From contig CADCJI010000001.1 in the NCBI GenBank assembly GCA_902801625.1, forward strand, positions 186,001 through 250,000: a stretch of DNA of 64,000 bases, in the 5' to 3' direction. Of the stretch, positions 19,698-28,519 are shown piece after piece; position 1 is the stretch's first letter; every line of letters starts with the position of its first letter. Below the pieces are notes generated by a model, which had not been told where the DNA came from, did no database searches, and saw nothing but the letters and a program-made list of their open reading frames with translations. The DNA comes from an uncultured Bacteroidia bacterium. GTDB lineage: Bacteria; Bacteroidota; Bacteroidia; Bacteroidales; F082. The position numbers were made by a program, and so were the translations under genes.

Positions 19698-19726
19698 GAC
19701 CCTTGGGTGACCGAGGGTCTTTTTTT
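19698..19726 (+). terminator. Intrinsic terminator of the DUF2795 gene
   Basis: GACCCTTGG / CCGAGGGTC form a 9-bp stem (one G-U) with loop GTGA, followed by seven T. A palindromic operator begins directly after the T-tract. Confidence 0.88.
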
Positions 19727-19743
19727 GTGACATATAGTGTCGC
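19727..19743. promoter_or_regulatory. Palindromic operator O3, GTGACATATAGTGTCGC
   Basis: Identical to operator O1 at 25919-25935 except for one base in the last arm (GTCGC for GTCAC). A possible -7 box TCCTTTTG at 19753-19760 begins nine bases after it, so the site would cover the -33 position, as at the other two operators. A second possible -7 box, TTACTTTG, is at 19796-19803. Probably controls the gene at 19831. Confidence 0.68.
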
Positions 19744-19830
19744 AAACTATTTTCCTTTTGGTGTCGTGCGTATTCCTTTTTCTTGTTACTTTGCAGCAGA
19801 AAAAACTATGTGAAACTAAAAATAAAAAAG

Positions 19831-20058
19831 ATGTCCCGATTATTGGAAGATTTGTTATGCGGAGCTTTGGGTTACGGCTTCGGCAAGCGCAACCGCGAGT
19901 TCACCCAAGAAGAGGTAGAATCATTGATTCGTTCCTACTTGAAAGGTGTCCCATTGGAAGCAGTCATCGGCCATTGGATGGAGGCCAACGATTATGGAAT
20001 GAGTTCACCCATTATTGCCCATCGCCTGCGCGAGAAGGCGGATGAGATAGAATTGTAA
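19831..20058 (+). CDS. Small protein of unknown function, first gene after operator O3
   Basis: 75 residues, starting MSRLLEDLLCGALGYGFGKR. The N-terminal third is hydrophobic with Gly, but too short for a certain membrane helix; the rest is helical and charged (TQEEVESLIRSYLKG). The frame is open to 19783, but the ATG at 19831 gives the compact protein. I recognise no family. It lies 64 bases before the gene at 20122, with no terminator between, so both are probably under operator O3. Confidence 0.6.
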   Translation: MSRLLEDLLCGALGYGFGKRNREFTQEEVESLIRSYLKGVPLEAVIGHWMEANDYGMSSPIIAHRLREKADEIEL

Positions 20059-20121
20059 GTATGATTTTTTTGCAATAGCATTACTCCTCTGCCTTAAGGC
20101 AACCATACATAAAACATTATT

Positions 20122-20526
20122 ATGGAAAAGCAAACCATTACAAAGGCTAAATTTCAAAAGCTGTTGACTTCCATCGGTGACGAAACCTACGAAATTGTTC
20201 TTGAAGGACTTAATTGGTACGAACAGCTCACCGATGGCGAGACGGTATACCAATATAAATTGATGTCGTTGCAGGAACAGAAATTTTCTGACTTTTGGGA
20301 CAAAGCAAAGTTTCCAGACAAGTTGTTTTCGGAGGGTAAGGTGTATGCCTATGCCTATATTGATGGGAACACCATCAAGTATTATCTTGTCCCTGAAAAG
20401 GTATTGGAAAGTGAAATCAGAAAGGCAAGAGAGATGGTGATGAACTACACCAGATGGTTGGTTGGAATGAAATCTTCGAGGCCGCCTCGCATCACAAGAA
20501 TGGTTCGAGAAGGAACTTCGAAATGA
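20122..20526 (+). CDS. Unknown protein, paralogue of the gene at 26365
   Basis: 134 residues, soluble and mixed alpha/beta. It shares with the protein at 26365-26775 the pattern WYEQLTDGETVYQYKLMS (there WFEQLTDGKAVYQHRLLS), the preceding DETYEIV/VTYQIV strand and a later Y-x-Y-LVP motif. Both are members of one small family I cannot name. Both sit in transcription units headed by GTGACA-type operators, so the duplication spans the module. Two paralogues under one regulator suggest they act together or on related partners. Confidence 0.66.
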   Translation: MEKQTITKAKFQKLLTSIGDETYEIVLEGLNWYEQLTDGETVYQYKLMSLQEQKFSDFWDKAKFPDKLFSEGKVYAYAYIDGNTIKYYLVPEKVLESEIRKAREMVMNYTRWLVGMKSSRPPRITRMVREGTSK

Positions 20527-20568
20527 AATTAAAATAGTTCCAGCAGCTTTGTGTATTGAAAAGATTAT

Positions 20569-20620
20569 TAGTTTTGTAACGAAATAAAAAAGCGGATGCC
20601 GAAAAGCTAGATGAGTAGGC
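20569..20620 (+). promoter_or_regulatory. Promoter box and truncated copy (A) of the leader RNA element
   Basis: A -7 box TAGTTTTG lies at 20569-20576. The element at 20591-20620 repeats the first half of the leader seen at 34972 and 36923: AGCGGATGCCGAAAAGC and ATGAGTAGGC, with the GCC/GGC stem kept. The second hairpin (GCGCCCGACACTCAT) is missing. It ends 23 bases before the ATG at 20644. Confidence 0.62.
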
Positions 20621-20643
20621 GTAACAAACATAATAGTCATAAT

Positions 20644-21687
20644 ATGAAAATAGAAATTGGAGAATCGTTGGTTTACACATGGCTTCGTCATGTAAAACAA
20701 TGCCAGATGGTTCAAATGAACTGGACACCATCTGATCTGTGGACGTTGAAGCATCAATCAGATTTGGATCAAATCATGAAAACAGTAGATTTGTTATTTC
20801 CTAAATATGCTATCTTTGGTCATAAAACGAAAATGCCGTTGAAGCAGTTTATTGCTCATGCTGAAATTGATGTTTTGGGTTCGTTAGATTTAGGAAATAC
20901 AATCTTTGCAGTGGATGTGGCTTTCCATGAAAATGGTCTAGGTTATGGTGGTACAGCTGAGAACGCAGCAAGGGTCGTAAAGAAGTGCTTGCGCGCAGCC
21001 ATGTGTATATATGGGTATTTTGATAAGAAAGATGCTGAGATCATCTTCGTTTCGCCTAAGATTCATAAAAAGGACTGGCCTGTAATTGCTCAGAATGTGA
21101 GAGACCTGGAATGCGAATTGAATAATATGGGATATAGTTTTGTTTTTAAGGTGATATGCGATCAGTCAACGCCTGATTTTCAATCCGAGATTCTAGATCC
21201 GGTACTCAGCGTAATTAATAACATAGCCGACACAAATGAGCTATTTGTCAGAAGTGTCCAATTACTGCACATGTTTTACAGTTGTTCTTCAAAAGCAAAG
21301 GTGGCCCCAAGAGGAAAGGGGGCCGGTCTACGCCCTTCCACGCCTCCCTTGAAAAAGCAATTTTCTGTTAATGGTACTTTATGTCGAACATACGGCGAAG
21401 TCGCTTTGGAAGCCGTGAGGATTTATGTATCTAAAAATCCTGGTTTTAATGCAACCCAGATTGCTAGTGCTTGGGCTCCTTTAAAAGTAGTATCTAATCA
21501 AGTTGAAACGGATTTTGATCATAATGCGAGAAAAAGCAGATCAAAAGACCCCGATTTTGATAAAAGAAGTTACGAAGTAAAACTGAAACAAGGATCTGTT
21601 TTCGTTTCCAATCAGTTTACGGATAAAAAAGTAATCGAATTGGCGAAAAAAGTAAATGTTCAACCTTGGGGTATTACAATTTCATAA
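20644..21687 (+). CDS. Possible PD-(D/E)XK-like nuclease of unknown family
   Basis: 347 residues from the ATG at 20644; an ATG at 20611 is part of the leader repeat and is not used. The segment HAEIDVLGSLDLGNTIFAVD through VAFHENGLGYGG has the spacing of a restriction-endonuclease-like core (Asp, then a D-x-A-x-H-E pattern with no clear Lys). Residues about 230-250 form a basic, Pro-rich linker, and the C-terminal 110 residues look like a separate winged-helix-like domain. Base use is AT-rich compared with its neighbours, suggesting transfer. It converges on the DUF2779 gene with a 14-base overlap. Nuclease activity is a guess from motif spacing. Confidence 0.5.
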   Translation: MKIEIGESLVYTWLRHVKQCQMVQMNWTPSDLWTLKHQSDLDQIMKTVDLLFPKYAIFGHKTKMPLKQFIAHAEIDVLGSLDLGNTIFAVDVAFHENGLGYGGTAENAARVVKKCLRAAMCIYGYFDKKDAEIIFVSPKIHKKDWPVIAQNVRDLECELNNMGYSFVFKVICDQSTPDFQSEILDPVLSVINNIADTNELFVRSVQLLHMFYSCSSKAKVAPRGKGAGLRPSTPPLKKQFSVNGTLCRTYGEVALEAVRIYVSKNPGFNATQIASAWAPLKVVSNQVETDFDHNARKSRSKDPDFDKRSYEVKLKQGSVFVSNQFTDKKVIELAKKVNVQPWGITIS

Positions 21688-23179
21688 GCCTCTCCAGCAC
21701 CTTCACCAGCGCCAAGGTATCGAGTTCGCAATAGCGTAACAATGCTTCGCGGGTAGCGGCGGCTTCTTCCGGTTGCATATCTTTGATCTTCGGGAATATA
21801 TCCATCGCTTCGGTGCCGTTCTGCACGCGATCGTCAAGGTTATGGTAGTTTAATGACGGATCGTTAGGGAACATGGCCGGCAGCACACTTTTGATGCTGA
21901 AAGACTTTCCCATGGCAGACACATAATAATGACCATCCTTAAATGGGTCGCGTAGATCTTTGATGTTATTGCTGATATTCAAAAGATGACTGGCCAGGTC
22001 CGGGAAGTCTTCTGCCAGTTTATTGATGATATTGAATTCGGTGCTTTTGTGATATGCCAGCGTGCAGACATCCTTGGGAATGTCCTTGCAGAGCTGCTCC
22101 GCCAGCGAACGCCGTGGATCGCTTCCGTCACTTGCGGCGAGGAATTCCTTGTGCTGACATGAAGCCGTCTCGCTCTCTTTGATATGCAGCGAATATTGGA
22201 AAGGAATCTGCTGGAAAGGCTTTGTTCCCTTAAATTCGGGCACTACTGGTTCCATGGTTTCGAAATCGAGGAAATAGAGCGGATAAGATAGTGTGTTGAG
22301 AAACTGTTGAATGCGTTCGCGGTTGATAAAAGCCCTTCCAGTAAGAGCGGCTTCGATCTGCATTTCACGTATTCCGTCAAACGACATTTCCTGCAGACTG
22401 TCGAATGAAATGTTTCCATTGCGATAGCAGTCGAGCTTCTTGCCGAAAGAAAAGCCTGTTCCGTAGAGGTCGAACACATTAGGTTGAGGTAAGTTGCGTG
22501 TACAATAATTCCAGAAACCGCAATCAAAAGGCTTTTTGCAGTTTTCTGATAGGTCTATGTCGGGCTCTGCCTCGCTGTCGAGAACCGTTCTTGCCTTTTC
22601 GATCCGTTCAGGCACAAGATTATAATGGTTTTCAATATCCTTGCTCACATCGATTACTGCAAAAAGCCCTGTCAAATCAAGGGTTTCTTCGCGAACGTAA
22701 TTGCTGTTGAGACAGACAAGATAAGCGTCAGTGACATTGACTCCACATTGTGTCAGCACCCATTTTTGGTATGCGATGTCTGGATAATACTTTTCTACCT
22801 TTTTTCTTTCATTTGAGCTAATGCTTTTCACTTCGTAAATACTCCAACCTGTGTCGGTTTTCCTAAGAAGGTCGACCGCACAATAATTGCCTTGATAGCT
22901 AAACGATGCTTCGCAGATGACATTCGTTCCTTTTATCATCTCCCGCTCAGTCTTATCTATCATAGTGGAAAGGTCAAGTTTACCATTAGGAAGGAGTGTA
23001 GTGACTTCCACATAGTCACCAAAGAGACCCATGGCCAGATCACCCACTTCGTTGCCTTGCTCAAGACGGGCTTGTCTATCATCTTCAATCACTTCAACTT
23101 CAGGCATGAAGTATTTCAACCACAACGCTTTAGGACATTGACAAAATGTGGTATATTTTGATTTGGATAGTCCTCTCAT
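21674..23179 (-). CDS. RecB/Cas4-like plus DUF2779 (DEDD exonuclease-like) protein
   Basis: 501 residues. The N-terminal domain (about 1-240) is Cas4/RecB-like: KYTTFCQCPKALWL near the start, IYEVKS as the nuclease-core strand, and a Cys cluster CKKPFDCGFWNYC suited to an Fe-S cluster. The C-terminal DUF2779 domain has FLDFETMEP, AYHKSTEFNIINKL and YCELDTLALV, the order of a DEDD exonuclease. Such proteins are common but not characterised well. It overlaps the WYL regulator gene by four bases, so it is the third gene of the AAA-WYL-nuclease operon. Predicted role: DNA or RNA end processing. Confidence 0.83.
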   Translation of the reverse strand: MRGLSKSKYTTFCQCPKALWLKYFMPEVEVIEDDRQARLEQGNEVGDLAMGLFGDYVEVTTLLPNGKLDLSTMIDKTEREMIKGTNVICEASFSYQGNYCAVDLLRKTDTGWSIYEVKSISSNERKKVEKYYPDIAYQKWVLTQCGVNVTDAYLVCLNSNYVREETLDLTGLFAVIDVSKDIENHYNLVPERIEKARTVLDSEAEPDIDLSENCKKPFDCGFWNYCTRNLPQPNVFDLYGTGFSFGKKLDCYRNGNISFDSLQEMSFDGIREMQIEAALTGRAFINRERIQQFLNTLSYPLYFLDFETMEPVVPEFKGTKPFQQIPFQYSLHIKESETASCQHKEFLAASDGSDPRRSLAEQLCKDIPKDVCTLAYHKSTEFNIINKLAEDFPDLASHLLNISNNIKDLRDPFKDGHYYVSAMGKSFSIKSVLPAMFPNDPSLNYHNLDDRVQNGTEAMDIFPKIKDMQPEEAAATREALLRYCELDTLALVKVLERLMKL

Positions 23180-24111
23180 TTTTTATTGTTTTGTATGTCG
23201 TTTTTGTATCTCTCCTCCATCTTCCCAATCTTTTCCTTTATCGCTTCTCTAACCTCGGCTGGTTCTAGCACTTCGAGGAGTTCACCTTCGTGCAGCAAGG
23301 CTTGGTAGAAGTCGTTGGCGGGACGCAACCTAAAAGTGAAAATGCTATAGTCTTCGTGTTGTTCCTCTTCTTGGCTGTGGTGAAGCGGCAGGGCGCGGTA
23401 GTAATTCGCACGTGCGGCATCAACCTTCATTTTGATAGTCGACAAAGCACCGTTCATGCCCGTCGTGATACCATAAACGTCATTGAAGTATTCTTCCGCA
23501 CTGAAACCTTTGGGGAGCTTGAAAGTGCTCTTTAACATTTTTAAGTCGCTTATCTGGTCCAACGAAAACGTTCGCATCCCATTGTCGTTTTTGTTTGTTT
23601 TCTCATCGGTTTGGCATATAACGTACCATCGACGTTCAAACAGTTTGACGCAGTAAGGCTCCACATGCTCATGCGGTTTCGGCTTGTGCTCCGGGTTGTT
23701 GTAGTATTTGGTATATTTGAAGCTGATCCTGCGGTTTTGCTCCATGGCCTCTAGGATGACCTGAAGTTTGTCTTCGTCATTGCTCGATGGGATATGCTCC
23801 AACAAGATACGGTCCTTTAAGGCTTCTCGGTCGTCAAGGAGGTTCATCAGCGAGAAGGTGTTGAACATCCAGTTGTTCAGTGAGTTGTTTTGGATAAGGT
23901 CTTTGCTCGCATCCGACAGGTCAAACTTACCTTTAGTGTTGGTGATCTCGATATGTAGTCTCTCCTTGATGGTATCGATCCATCGGTAGATGGTTCGTCT
24001 GTCGACCTGGAAATACAGGGTCAAGTCCTCCATGTCGCGAGGCTGTTTTAGCAGCCTCGCGATGAACTCGTGATAACGGTCTGAAGTTTGTCGTGGCATA
24101 GGTTTTTGCAT
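23176..24111 (-). CDS. WYL-domain transcriptional regulator with N-terminal HTH
   Basis: 311 residues from the ATG at 24111 (an ATG at 24099 is also possible). The N-terminal winged HTH reads RQTSDRYHEFIARLLKQ then VDRRTIYRWIDTIKE. A WYL domain covers about 120-220 (ISFKYTKYYN, ERRWYVICQTDE, MRTFSLDQI), followed by a WCX-like dimer domain. WYL proteins, such as BrxR and CapW, repress defence operons and respond to nucleic-acid ligands. This gene lies between the AAA+ and nuclease genes in an operon headed by palindromic operators, so autorepression is likely. A TATATTTG box at the AAA/WYL junction may give a weak internal promoter. Confidence 0.85.
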   Translation of the reverse strand: MQKPMPRQTSDRYHEFIARLLKQPRDMEDLTLYFQVDRRTIYRWIDTIKERLHIEITNTKGKFDLSDASKDLIQNNSLNNWMFNTFSLMNLLDDREALKDRILLEHIPSSNDEDKLQVILEAMEQNRRISFKYTKYYNNPEHKPKPHEHVEPYCVKLFERRWYVICQTDEKTNKNDNGMRTFSLDQISDLKMLKSTFKLPKGFSAEEYFNDVYGITTGMNGALSTIKMKVDAARANYYRALPLHHSQEEEQHEDYSIFTFRLRPANDFYQALLHEGELLEVLEPAEVREAIKEKIGKMEERYKNDIQNNKK

Positions 24112-24139
24112 ATTGGTGAGGATGCAAATATAACATTTT

Positions 24140-25855
24140 TTATTCATCATCGTGTCGTTTGTTATGAAAACCTGTGATTTGGGTGCGCGGCTTGGCCAAA
24201 AGCTCTTCATCGCAGAAAGTCTTCAGCATGCCGAAATCGGGCTTCTTGCCTTCCAGAATGCTTTCAATGCGGCATTTGCGGGCGATGTTCTCAATCTGGC
24301 CGCCGCTGAACGCATAACTTTCCACAATCCGGTCGTGATTTTCGATGTCCTTGATCTCTGGAATCATGTCTTCCCAGATGTGCAGTCGAGCGTTGACGTC
24401 GGGGTTGCCAAACTTGACCTTGAACAAGAAACGACGCTCGAAAGCCGAGTCAAGGTTTTCGGTGAGGTTGGTAGTAGCGATGAGGATACCGTCGAGTTTC
24501 TCCATCGCTTCAAGGATGATGTTCTGCATGGTGTTCTCCATCTTCTCGACCGAGTGGTTGATGTTGGTGAAGCGGTTGCCCAACAAAGCGTCGGCTTCGT
24601 TGAGGAGCAGGATGGGAGCCACCTCGGAGTGTTTGACAATGGAACGGTATTGTTTGAAGATGTTTTTCACGTTCTTCTCACTTTCGCCCACCCATTTGCT
24701 GCGGATGTTGGCCATGTTGACCTGGTAGATGCCTCTCCCCGTCATGCGTGCCAGTTGCAGGGCGGCTTCGGTCTTACCCGTTCCTGGACCGCCATAAAAC
24801 AGGCAGGCAAAACCAGTGCGCAACCCGTTTTGGACAAGTCTCTCATGGATGCCCAGATAGTTTTCCTGCTGCAGCAAGCCACTTAAACGCTTGATTTGTT
24901 TGTCGACACCATCGTTGAAATACAGTTGTTTTGGCATAATGCTGTTGAACGGGATGTAATCTTTCATGTTCTTGAACTGAATACCATCGATATTAGAGAT
25001 TACCTCCGAGAGTAGTTCTCTCTTGGCTTTCTTGGTCAATTCAAACTGCTCGTCGTCCTCGAAACCGTTGTCGCAGCTGGGCTCGATAAGTTCCTGGAAT
25101 ATGAGATTATGGGTGCCGTTGGCAAGCTCATCCCAGCTATTGCTGAGATAATCGCGATCAACGAAGCGTGAAAAATCGTCGGAATCAAAGCAGAATTTGT
25201 CGTGGCAGCACAGCAGGATGCAGGCGCCGACGAGCATGCCCTGGTCGTTTCGATCGAGGTTGTAGCCTTTGAGCGCTTTGGTGAACATAAAGTGCTGGTT
25301 GTCGTCAAGCAGGAGTTGTAGCTCGTTGTGGAATTCTTCACAGGTGTGAATGAACGGGCCATCGAATTCGTATGACATCGTCTCAATGGCATGCATCATT
25401 TTGATACAAGTGTCGTAGACAACAGGGGTGTGATGGCAGATCTCGTTGTTCCCAAATGCATCCATGATGTCCCATCTAGTACTGTAGACTTTTGATGAGT
25501 ACTTGCCAATCAGGCTTTTGTTTGCCAGGTCGTCCAACTCTTTGACGAAAGTCAATGCATTCAGGTTGGAGCATCCAAAAAACTTGCTTAATCTAGAGAT
25601 GGTGACATGGTTGTCGGCGCCCAACTCGCAGACCACAGAAAGCAATACGGCTTGCTTCTCATTGATATGCAGCCTTTCGCAGAGATAGTGGATGGGCTTC
25701 TGCAAATAGAAGAGCAGGTTGTCGGTAAAGCCGGTGTTCTCCGAATGTTCCACAATGAGGTTCATGGCCTCAAGGATTTCGGTCGGTTCCGTTTCCAGAG
25801 GAAACAGATAAGGGTCTTTGAGCGGGATGTTTGTTCTTGAAATACGGTTTACCAT
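24140..25855 (-). CDS. AAA+ ATPase (spastin/proteasome-ATPase-like) with helical N-terminal region
   Basis: 571 residues. About 330 N-terminal residues are helical with no motif I recognise. A classical AAA domain follows: Walker A GGPGTGKT (Lys 361), pore-like MANIRSKWVGESEKNVKNIF, and Walker B LLLNEADALLG, in which Asn replaces the usual Asp before catalytic Glu 420. Sensor 1 is ATTNLTENLD, followed by an AFERRFLFKV Arg finger. It is the first gene of the leftward operon under operator O1; the WYL gene begins 29 bases after its stop. It probably remodels a protein or nucleoprotein complex; the target is unknown. Confidence 0.83.
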   Translation of the reverse strand: MVNRISRTNIPLKDPYLFPLETEPTEILEAMNLIVEHSENTGFTDNLLFYLQKPIHYLCERLHINEKQAVLLSVVCELGADNHVTISRLSKFFGCSNLNALTFVKELDDLANKSLIGKYSSKVYSTRWDIMDAFGNNEICHHTPVVYDTCIKMMHAIETMSYEFDGPFIHTCEEFHNELQLLLDDNQHFMFTKALKGYNLDRNDQGMLVGACILLCCHDKFCFDSDDFSRFVDRDYLSNSWDELANGTHNLIFQELIEPSCDNGFEDDEQFELTKKAKRELLSEVISNIDGIQFKNMKDYIPFNSIMPKQLYFNDGVDKQIKRLSGLLQQENYLGIHERLVQNGLRTGFACLFYGGPGTGKTEAALQLARMTGRGIYQVNMANIRSKWVGESEKNVKNIFKQYRSIVKHSEVAPILLLNEADALLGNRFTNINHSVEKMENTMQNIILEAMEKLDGILIATTNLTENLDSAFERRFLFKVKFGNPDVNARLHIWEDMIPEIKDIENHDRIVESYAFSGGQIENIARKCRIESILEGKKPDFGMLKTFCDEELLAKPRTQITGFHNKRHDDE

Positions 25856-25900
25856 GGCTGTTTCTTTTTCATTAAACTTTTGTTTTTACGATTGGGGCGG

Positions 25901-25935
25901 CAAAAGTAGAAACGACTTGTGACATATAGTGTCAC
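25901..25935 (-). promoter_or_regulatory. Promoter and operator O1 of the AAA-WYL-nuclease operon
   Basis: Read leftward, the palindrome GTGACACTATATGTCAC (25919-25935, 6-bp perfect arms) is followed after ten bases by the -7 box TACTTTTG (25901-25908). The palindrome covers the position expected for the -33 box, where a repressor would block the polymerase. Confidence 0.78.
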
Positions 25936-25948
25936 TAAAACTTTTTTG

Positions 25949-25983
25949 GTGACATTATATGTCACTTTTTTGGTGTTCCTTTG
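25949..25983 (+). promoter_or_regulatory. Promoter and operator O2 of the rightward operon
   Basis: GTGACATTATATGTCAC (25949-25965, 6-bp perfect arms) is followed after ten bases by a -7-like box TTCCTTTG (25976-25983). Its centre is 30 bp from the centre of O1, about three helical turns, so two bound dimers could touch on the same face. Confidence 0.75.
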
Positions 25984-26092
25984 CAGTCCGATAAAAATAA
26001 AAGAAATGAAAAAGGTTAAGATATATATTATTATGAAATAATAATATAGGTAGGACCATTATATACTTCAACAACTAAAAAATCAAACGCCA

Positions 26093-26308
26093 ATGGAAGA
26101 TCTCTTTATCCTTCTGCTCGTTCTCATCATGATCGTAGCATTCATCATCGCCCTTGTCGGCAGCATTATTGAAGGCCTGTTTCAACTGCTTTGCGGCTTT
26201 TTCCAGCAAGTTGGCGCTCTCTTTGCCGGAGCTGGCATCTATGGCATCATCACCATCGTGAGTGTCGTAGTATTCATCATTGCCATTATATACATTATAA
26301 ATAATTAG
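26093..26308 (+). CDS. Small two-helix membrane protein
   Basis: 71 residues, almost entirely hydrophobic: helix about 4-27, a loop with CGFFQQ, and a second helix about 44-70 rich in Ile and Val. No family recognised. It is the first gene after operator O2, 109 bases downstream of the promoter box. Small membrane proteins in defence or toxin systems can act as effectors, but nothing here proves that. Confidence 0.65.
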   Translation: MEDLFILLLVLIMIVAFIIALVGSIIEGLFQLLCGFFQQVGALFAGAGIYGIITIVSVVVFIIAIIYIINN

Positions 26309-26364: not shown

Positions 26365-26775
26365 ATGGAAATTAAAAAAGTAAACAAGACCGATTTTGTT
26401 GAGGTGGCCAGCGCCATCGGTACCGTAACCTATCAAATCGTCAGCAATGGTAACGTCTGGTTTGAGCAATTGACCGACGGCAAGGCAGTGTATCAACACA
26501 GACTACTTTCCATTAAGAGAATGAAAAGCGATGCGTTGTTCAACAAAGCTTTGGTTGAAGCCCACAAAGAGCCTTCCCGCTTGAAGGATGCATCAGGATG
26601 CACCTATGCCTTTGTTTATGAGAGTGGCTCGTTCGTCTACTATTGCTTGGTCCCTGTTACTAAAAGGGAAAAGGCTCGTGCCGACCGACAAGTGAGGTTG
26701 TATGCCCAATGCTTGGCGCCCAAAAAAGCGACCCCGTTGCCGCACCAACCGAATGAAAACAGAATAGCTGCTTAA
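26365..26775 (+). CDS. Unknown protein, paralogue of the gene at 20122
   Basis: 136 residues. It shares WFEQLTDGKAVYQHRLLS, the start pattern of a Lys/Thr segment followed by VASAIGTVTYQIV, and the YYCLVPV strand with the protein at 20122-20526; overall identity is moderate. The C-terminus is basic and Pro-rich. It lies 56 bases after the small membrane protein in the O2 unit. A long hairpin follows ten bases after its stop. Confidence 0.66.
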   Translation: MEIKKVNKTDFVEVASAIGTVTYQIVSNGNVWFEQLTDGKAVYQHRLLSIKRMKSDALFNKALVEAHKEPSRLKDASGCTYAFVYESGSFVYYCLVPVTKREKARADRQVRLYAQCLAPKKATPLPHQPNENRIAA

Positions 26776-26844: not shown

Positions 26845-27687
26845 ATGGAAACTACAAATCCCAACATCACTCCCGAGGGCAATTTCACCCTCGTCTATCG
26901 TCCTAGCGATCCGAATGCAGAGCCACATACGGCACTTGAGGCTGGTATCCAATTCTTGTATGACTGCTGGAATTCGAATTGGCCCCACACCGATGAGGAG
27001 ACCCTTCAATACCTACATCGTTATAATCAGTTTAACCGTCCGTTGTCCATAAAAGCCCGGAAACGCTTGCAGCGCATCATCGACAAGGTGCTCCAACCGG
27101 CATTCGAGGAAGGTAACCATGATGCCACCTATGGATTGTATTTTGCATACGATGTAGGTGTGGGGGTGGAACGAGATGAAGACAAGGCTTTGGAATATCT
27201 GAAGACTTTGGCTGAAAGCGGCTACATAGATATGCAGTGGAAATTGGCGTCGATGTGTCAATGTTACTACTGGGACAACCGCGAAAGGGAAATGCACCGC
27301 GAAGCAGTGAAATGGTATGAAAAACTGGCGATGCTGGGTGAAGAGGAAGCGATGTACCGTCTTGGAGTGTGTTTTAGAGACAAAAACTCGGGTAAACGTA
27401 GTTGCAGAAAGTCGTTTTTGTGGTACAAGAGGGCTGCAGAGAGAGGCCATAAAGAAGCTATGGAGGAGCTAGGGTTTTGCTACCAAAAGGGAATAGGTGT
27501 CAAGAAAGATCTTGCCACTGCTGCTGAATGGTACGAAAAGGCTGGAATGCATGACAAAGCTGAAAGACTTAGAAATGGCGAGGATGAATTTGCCTTTAAC
27601 GTTTTTCCATCTCATCCTGTCCCTTATATGGAAGAAGTAGACGGTTTAATACCTTTTCCAGAAATGGATATGGATATTCCATTTTAG
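26845..27687 (+). CDS. Sel1-repeat protein
   Basis: 280 residues. Sel1-like repeats cover about 90-255: YGLYFAYDVGVGVERDEDKA, AMYRLGVCFRDKNSGKRSC and AMEELGFCYQKGIGVKKDLA. Sel1 repeats are helical scaffolds for protein binding. The ATG at 26845 is used; a TTG at 26806 lies inside the hairpin. No signal peptide, so it is cytosolic. The acidic C-terminal tail has no motif. It is probably an adaptor within the O2 operon. Confidence 0.78.
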   Translation: METTNPNITPEGNFTLVYRPSDPNAEPHTALEAGIQFLYDCWNSNWPHTDEETLQYLHRYNQFNRPLSIKARKRLQRIIDKVLQPAFEEGNHDATYGLYFAYDVGVGVERDEDKALEYLKTLAESGYIDMQWKLASMCQCYYWDNREREMHREAVKWYEKLAMLGEEEAMYRLGVCFRDKNSGKRSCRKSFLWYKRAAERGHKEAMEELGFCYQKGIGVKKDLATAAEWYEKAGMHDKAERLRNGEDEFAFNVFPSHPVPYMEEVDGLIPFPEMDMDIPF

Positions 27688-27724: not shown

Positions 27725-28519
27725 ATGGAAACAAACGACACGTTAGATCAAAAGACAAAAGCAAAACAACTCATGATACATGGGTATAAACTGTGTACCA
27801 GTGGAAATTATACCGATGGAGCCAAATACTTTAAGAAAGCAGCAGTCTTGGGCGATTTGGAAGCGGTCTATGGCTTGGCCTTTTTGTACTACGAAGGCAA
27901 GGGCGTTGAGAAAGACCTTGCGGAAGCAACCAGATGTTTCGAGACTTTAGCAAATCAAGAGTGTGATTTTCGTGAAGTTTCCCAACTACGGCTCGCCAAA
28001 CTGGCCAACATCTCTTCGGGTGAAGGTATTGGGATTGTAGAGGTGATGGAACATTTTAACGCAGACTTTTTTGCCAAGCAGAGGAATTATCCCCGTTTGT
28101 GGAAACGAGCCCTCAATGGAGACTGGAGAGCGCAAAAGTGTATTGCTGACACGATTTACTCTGATCTGTATTTCAGGCATCTTGACACCGATGGCGAAAC
28201 CATGATGAGGTATTATTTGAACTTGGCCGAGCACGACAATGTGGGTGCACAAGAGAGCCTCTTTTTCATCTATAGTAGTGATCAAGTAGGCGTCGGACTT
28301 GGTAAGAAGAATTTGAGCGAGGCCATCAAGTGGGGTATGAAAGCGGCCCATAACGGCAGCGTGCATGTCCAAGCTTTGCTTGCCAACGCTCTGTTGGAAG
28401 GGAATTTTGAAGGTGAACCTGTCGAACAAGACCGGGAAAAGGCAATTTTTTGGTTTAGAAATGCTGCAAAAAAAGGTTATAAGAAAGCCAAGAAAAAACT
28501 TACCGAACTTGGCATGTAA
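27725..28519 (+). CDS. Sel1-repeat protein
   Basis: 264 residues with Sel1-like repeats near the ends: YGLAFLYYEGKGVEKDLAEA (about 55-75) and HVQALLANALLEGNFEGEPV (about 215-235). Between them the repeats are degenerate. No signal peptide. It follows the other Sel1 gene by 37 bases and ends the rightward unit; no clear terminator was seen before the next promoter at 28612. Confidence 0.76.
   Translation: METNDTLDQKTKAKQLMIHGYKLCTSGNYTDGAKYFKKAAVLGDLEAVYGLAFLYYEGKGVEKDLAEATRCFETLANQECDFREVSQLRLAKLANISSGEGIGIVEVMEHFNADFFAKQRNYPRLWKRALNGDWRAQKCIADTIYSDLYFRHLDTDGETMMRYYLNLAEHDNVGAQESLFFIYSSDQVGVGLGKKNLSEAIKWGMKAAHNGSVHVQALLANALLEGNFEGEPVEQDREKAIFWFRNAAKKGYKKAKKKLTELGM

Follow-up and report, generated by a model that had tools for sequence, protein, structure and literature searches.

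The 64,000-nucleotide stretch analyzed here (the window), from the genome of an uncultured rumen member of the Bacteroidales, carries an accessory module in which three matching palindromes, O1, O2 and O3, precede a leftward operon and two rightward units that start with small proteins. The leftward operon encodes, in this order, an AAA+ ATPase, a regulator of the WYL family and a DUF2779 protein. Judged from sequence comparison, the three palindromes are very probably binding sites of this neighboring WYL regulator. The features on which the argument rests are given below, by position in the window, in base pairs (bp).

19727..19743, no strand: O3, operator GTGACATATAGTGTCGC, upstream of the gene for a protein of 75 amino acids (aa); in 5 loci
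19753..19760, plus strand: TCCTTTTG, the -7 box assigned to O3 by the first-pass annotation of this DNA; in 3/5 loci, probably not the promoter
19786..19793, plus strand: TTACTTTG, likely -7 box of the 75-aa gene unit, 42 bp from O3; in 5/5 loci
21674..23179, minus strand: DUF2779 gene, with a weak Cas4-like match
23176..24099, minus strand: WYL regulator (winged helix-turn-helix, helical linker, WYL and WCX domains), proposed reader of O1-O3; its open reading frame (ORF) runs upstream to 24210
24125..24132, minus strand: TATATTTG, the WYL gene's own -7-like box, without an operator of the type of O1-O3 (type A)
24140..25855, minus strand: AAA+ ATPase, first gene of the O1 operon
25901..25908, minus strand: -7 box TACTTTTG for the AAA operon, 10 bp from O1
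25919..25935, no strand: O1, 17-bp operator GTGACATATAGTGTCAC, preceding the leftward AAA operon; kept in two orthologous loci (L098 and L097)
25949..25965, no strand: O2, 17-bp operator GTGACATTATATGTCAC, preceding the rightward unit of small-protein and Sel1 genes
25976..25983, plus strand: -7 box TTCCTTTG, 10 bp from O2

Operators and promoter geometry

All three palindromes lie where the first-pass annotation had placed them, with O1 and O2 each exactly 10 bp from its own -7 box and their centers 30 bp apart, as claimed. Taking the -7 box as centered at -7, O1 and O2 span about -37 to -21, over the -33 region (the -7 and -33 consensus of the phylum was taken from PMC7366714). A search of the 3.58-Mb genome (84% complete) with the strict pattern GTGACAN5TGTCRC gave five copies, of which only O1, O2 and O3 are intergenic; the other two, on contigs C5 and C11, both lie inside ORFs and were rejected as regulon members. 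The reversed pattern has no copy in the same genome. Allowing up to three mismatches gave no excess in the window (13 matches, against a shuffle mean of 16), and up to two mismatches gave 16 sites in the genome, so that weight is placed only on near-perfect copies.

Seven orthologous loci were compared, namely the window, L098, L097, L099, L101, L038 and L102 (L036/L098, L037/L097 and L099/L100 are each one locus under two identifiers and were counted once). In their divergent promoters, where the operators were chosen by eye before distances were measured, the end of the palindrome lies 10 bp from a -7-like box in 14/14 cases, the palindromes being 17 bp long except for three of 19 bp. The distance between the centers of the two divergent operators varies with operator type (30, 32 and 30 bp for type A, 63-64 bp for type B, 55 bp for type C), so that the 30-bp spacing of O1 and O2 was rejected as a general rule. 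The WYL gene has its own -7-like TTANNTTTGC box ahead of it in 7/7 loci. An A/T-rich leader after O2 (about 26018-26062) holds the inverted repeat TATTATTAT...ATAATAATA plus TAGGACCA, and is similar in five of the seven loci, L102 and L038 being the exceptions.

The geometry of O3 differs. A TTNCTTTGCAG box stands exactly 42 bp after O3 in all five loci that have this operator, so that the center of O3 precedes the likely box by 50.5 bp; at O1 and O2 the distance is shorter by 32 bp, or about three helical turns. The first-pass annotation had given all three sites one geometry, with the palindrome over -33, and had assigned O3 a -7 box, TCCTTTTG, 9 bp away; this box is present but not conserved, and the common geometry is wrong for O3. 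It is improbable that O3 nevertheless serves a TCCTTTTG promoter in nearly the manner of O1 and O2: the box does follow O3 by 9 bp in the window, L099 and L101, at a center distance of 17.5 bp, one base off the register of the family described below, yet it is absent from L098 and L097 although these keep both the operator and the 42-bp box. A terminator-like hairpin with a T run occupies 19699-19726, immediately ahead of O3.

Operators and regulator domains change together

The first-pass annotation would have given up its proposal had the palindromes been absent near orthologous operons; they are present in the two nearest orthologues. L098, whose WYL protein is 74% identical to that of the window, has GTGACATATAGTGTCAC ahead of the 75-aa gene, and its divergent region holds two operators. 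In L097 (WYL 55%, AAA 91%) the divergent region likewise holds two, and ahead of its 75-aa gene this locus carries GTGACGTTTAGCGTCAC, a symmetric double change by which the palindrome is kept. No AAA gene was found at the L098 locus, where the operators and the WYL gene stay; by eye, an apparent remnant of the AAA 3' end lies before WYL at L098 9376-9560.

In the other four loci the N-terminal domain of the WYL protein is of another kind, and so are the palindromes of the divergent region. Operator type thus tracks the type of the helix-turn-helix (HTH) domain of the WYL protein: type A in the window, L098 and L097; type B, with palindromes GTGCAATTATTTTTCGCAC and GTGTATTTTAATTGCAC, in L099, L101 and L038; and type C, with CTGACATAAAATGTCAG and CTGACATTTTACGTCAG, in L102. 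The cleanest swap, as far as alignments tell, is that between L102 and L038, in which identity is 95.1% for the AAA body (1587 bp) and 90.6% for the DNA beyond the right -7 box (309 bp), while a stretch of about 200 bp with the AAA start and the operators finds no match on its own and WYL is matched only in patches of 65-69%. The window and L099 are 89% identical to the left of the module. Within it, DUF2779 and the 3' end of WYL agree at 94% and the remainder of AAA at 77-85%, while three segments find no match, namely 23323-24203 (WYL), 24830-25510 (middle of AAA) and 25822-25968 (operators); the right side is 76.5% identical. From these two comparisons we conclude that operators and HTH change together. 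Because a different WYL HTH goes with different palindromes even where the AAA body is 95% identical, the WYL protein is the right candidate for their reader.

The DUF2779 gene of L102 forms a unit of its own, with a third type-C operator placed 10 bp ahead of a TATTTTTG box. The WYL, AAA and operator DNA of L099 and L101 is 96-99.6% identical and exceeds the identity of the neighboring genes (88-93%), which suggests a recent transfer or swap. Two smaller observations concern the same loci. In L102 (366-1827 and 2912-3013) the DUF2779 match falls in two frames, and a second short piece of a WYL 3' end stands separate from the WYL gene; and in L099, L101 and L038 a CTATGC...GCATAG inverted repeat with a variable loop, possibly an AAA terminator, precedes the own box of the type-B WYL genes.

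A common register around related WYL genes

At loci of more distant WYL relatives, additional palindromes were seen at the corresponding position. Scans that used no chosen operators covered whole fetched stretches, nearness to a WYL gene not being required, and paired palindromes of 15-23 bp with perfect six-base arms with boxes of the form T[AT]NNTTTG. In 40 loci of the genus outside class D (described below; 467 kb), 16/117 pairs had the palindrome centered 18.5 bp before the box, no other distance exceeded 5, and five shuffles gave 0-1. Around class-D WYL or AAA relatives (23 loci) the same register took 44/136 pairs, against 6 for the next highest distance and 0-2 in shuffles. An out-of-sample set of 40 loci drawn from other families in the order showed it again (459 kb; from among the best-scoring matches of a search over 294 genomes, 101 with a match), with 14/127 pairs, a next highest count of 5 and 0-4 in Markov controls; two of these 14 matches (L289 and L317) look like chance. 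In WYL-free control DNA (204 kb), 1/59 pairs fell at 18.5 bp. Some register sites lie kilobases from the WYL gene. Among the register palindromes of the genus and other-family loci, 22/30 have TG at offsets -7/-6. Another palindrome filter, which missed most class-D sites because the class-D arms start further out, was not used for counts.

Each fetched locus holds between 0 and 7 copies of the class-D motif, CTGTGC-N9-GCACAG, some of them immediately ahead of WYL or of AAA relatives. Together with a box the motif is found in 32/38 genomes that have a class-D WYL gene (product at least 75% identical to P0009) versus 11/61 without (Fisher 6e-11; orthologous promoters are non-independent, above all in class D, and the Fisher and Poisson values are too small), and a search for the reversed pattern found no copy in any of the 99 genomes. 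No full palindrome stands immediately ahead of the WYL genes of Segatella copri, S. hominis and Prevotella sp. E2-28; counted by eye, there is only a TGTGC half-site at the same register, which is not used as proof.

Further WYL relatives were seen along the way. The window's own genome has a class-D WYL gene at another locus (L045, G000:C10), with four class-D motif matches on that contig and one each on C11 and C23. The class-E WYL genes (L246, L248, L250 and L253) have a palindrome, TGTTTCAYGTTTTGAAACA, 44-53 bp before the WYL start, and the box there faces the divergent gene, away from WYL, as described for driD. WYL relatives of 25-53% identity to P0009 also lie on L328 (MT837679.1) and on eight other unannotated, bacteriophage-labelled records from human faeces.

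Probable reader and proposed mode of action

The first-pass annotation had proposed one regulator for the sites, the local WYL protein, and this part of its proposal is supported both by the agreement of operator type with HTH type in the seven loci and by the recurrence of the register in other families. That some other regulator reads the palindromes, with the WYL gene linked by chance or by shared mobility, is very unlikely: a type-A O3 does persist in G103, the genome of L101, without a type-A WYL protein, but against this stand the joint change of operators and WYL HTH flanking a common AAA body, the return of the register close to many WYL genes, and, over 99 genomes, the association of class-D sites with class-D WYL genes.

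Promoter quality may bear on the mode of action. Upstream of genes, TANNTTTG is enriched (137 sense, 67 antisense) and TTNNTTTG is not (49 sense, 73 antisense). Class-D targets carry TTTCTTTG in 48/56 cases and class-D WYL genes TATCTTTG in 4/4, and a -7 box with TT in place of TA is found at most class-D targets and at O2. The presence of TTTG at -33 was dropped as a test of promoter quality, TTTG being rare at every distance in 206 background promoters.

Among solved WYL proteins, structure comparison places DriD above the others, with CapW and BrxR weaker, and a profile search places DriD and PafBC above CapW. DriD of Caulobacter crescentus is a homodimeric WYL activator (PMC12340889). Shared with it are the order of winged HTH, helical linker, WYL and WCX, a site over the -35 region (here -33) at a constant distance from the -10 element (here -7; O3 excepted), a divergent promoter adjoining the regulator, and perhaps nonoptimal promoters. 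Unlike in DriD, the site center would here lie about 29 bp before the start and not on the -35 element, the promoters are of the sigma-ABfr kind, the targets are accessory clusters, and one site (O3) lies further upstream. PafBC, a mycobacterial WYL heterodimer, activates from the interval between -35 and -10, through an asymmetric -26 motif as opposed to the palindromes seen here. SiwR, also mycobacterial, is a homodimeric activator with a 19-bp imperfect palindrome between -35 and -10, for which activation has been shown (PMC10693628); it serves one operon, and a family of private operators is not described for it in what could be consulted of that paper.

CapW and BrxR are WYL repressors of CBASS and BREX defence genes, and resemble the present system in domain order, in palindromic or inverted-repeat operators and in their link to defence genes (PMC9122588, PMC9122601). 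They give substance to the alternative, which we hold to be possible though clearly the less probable, that a WYL dimer on the same sites represses, covering -33 and excluding polymerase until a ligand releases it, with autorepression at O1 silencing the module until infection. Beside the domain order, the consensus -7 box of O1 and the position of the WYL gene within the operon behind O1 fit this account. However, CapW binds across the -10 element and the R-BOX1 site of BrxR is found downstream of the promoter, whereas O1 and O2 leave a 10-bp gap to a free -7 box and hold one register; at many targets the -7 box departs from consensus, O3 would be poorly placed to block from 50.5 bp, and DriD is structurally nearer. 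The "repressor" of the first-pass annotation is thus not supported and is less likely than activation. The predicted activator mode is favored by the fixed spacing, the -33 placement, the weak -7 boxes at many targets and the structural match to DriD, the closest one.

From the observed sites, spacing, conservation and operator-HTH co-change, we infer binding, dimerization, activation and signal as follows. The WYL protein (23176-24099) would dimerize and bind O1, O2 and O3 through its N-terminal winged helix. On O1 and O2, over -33, the dimer would aid the RNA polymerase holoenzyme at promoters with poor elements, much as DriD does, and from O3 it would work at a class-I-like place, 32 bp further upstream of the box. 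The WYL domain probably senses a signal, e.g. single-stranded nucleic acid after DNA damage or phage attack. The regulon would comprise the AAA-WYL-DUF2779 operon and the two units starting with small proteins. Taken as a whole, a WYL dimer that binds O1-O3 and activates these three units is in our judgment somewhat on the probable side.

Several observations weigh against this account. Consensus -7 boxes stand at O1 and at both type-C promoters, and TTTG occurs 18-19 bp before the box in 5/13 palindrome promoters. The fixed spacing may be inherited, and fits repression too. Perfect-arm register sites were found in only 14/40 genus loci and 10/40 other-family loci. Regarding the swaps, a long alignment of L102 and L038 (90.8%, 2423 columns) crosses the operator stretch, and on the alignments the swap between the window and L099 is less clean than that between L102 and L038, with the middle of AAA unmatched and the right side at 76.5%. 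Moreover, O3 is still type A in L099 (degraded) and L101 (perfect), loci with a type-B WYL protein, and in G103 (99% complete) no type-A reader was found, the single WYL match being type B; a protein other than WYL could use O3 there.

Wider reading

There is precedent for WYL regulators, for palindromic sites and for activation near -35. For private operators in one register across an order, exchanged with the HTH, none was found: among the papers listed by the literature searches none deals with WYL operators of the Bacteroidales, these searches reaching neither subscription journals nor most preprints. That related WYL regulators in the order often have their own palindromes at the same promoter place points to one shared way of switching accessory clusters. 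The extended form of this idea, for which we see roughly even chances on the sequence evidence, is that the Bacteroidales WYL family forms near-orthogonal switches, with private palindromes (in many of which a TG..CA core has the same offset), one distance to the -7 box, and several units per accessory, defence-like cluster, HTH and operators being co-exchanged by recombination as the body of the module stays.

A string-level observation hereby becomes a testable regulon with a predicted reader. The rule of a palindrome centered 18.5 bp before a -7 box can locate WYL-controlled promoters in the Bacteroidales, and the natural series of HTH/operator pairs is a source for reading the DNA specificity of WYL proteins. 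If activation is true, the mode of DriD extends to sigma-ABfr promoters.

Other genes of the module

The rightward genes of the module are the following.

19831..20058, plus strand: 75-aa protein under O3
20122..20526, plus strand: 134-aa protein, paralogue (about 36% identity) of the 136-aa protein under O2
20611..21687, plus strand: 358-aa protein, in a slot with differing content between genomes
26093..26308, plus strand: 71-aa hydrophobic protein, first gene under O2
26365..26775, plus strand: 136-aa protein under O2
26845..27687, plus strand: Sel1-repeat protein
27725..28519, plus strand: Sel1-repeat protein

Run on ten module proteins, PADLOC returned the WYL protein, IetA- and TRIP13-model matches for the ATPase, Cas4-model matches and weaker Cas3c, mad8 and PtuA-model matches, with no complete system, no CD-NTase and no BREX core protein; NCBIfam gave no match above cut-off among the same ten. 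The WYL relatives of Segatella and Prevotella adjoin annotated DUF262, exonuclease and nuclease genes, and these neighbors look defence-like.

In L102 and L038 the 75-aa gene directly follows the 71-aa gene. Between the 134-aa gene (or the region left of WYL) and the WYL operon lies a slot whose gene content varies by genome (window 20611-21687; L099 2661-5183; L098 7106-8470; L038 6398-8732), and some slot genes have related ends, resembling exchangeable cargo. A second locus of the same genome (L110, G000:C1:63000-80000) has paralogues of the AAA protein and of the 136-aa protein, with no WYL match to P0001 there, and the genes between the two paralogues read as SbcC/SbcD-like.

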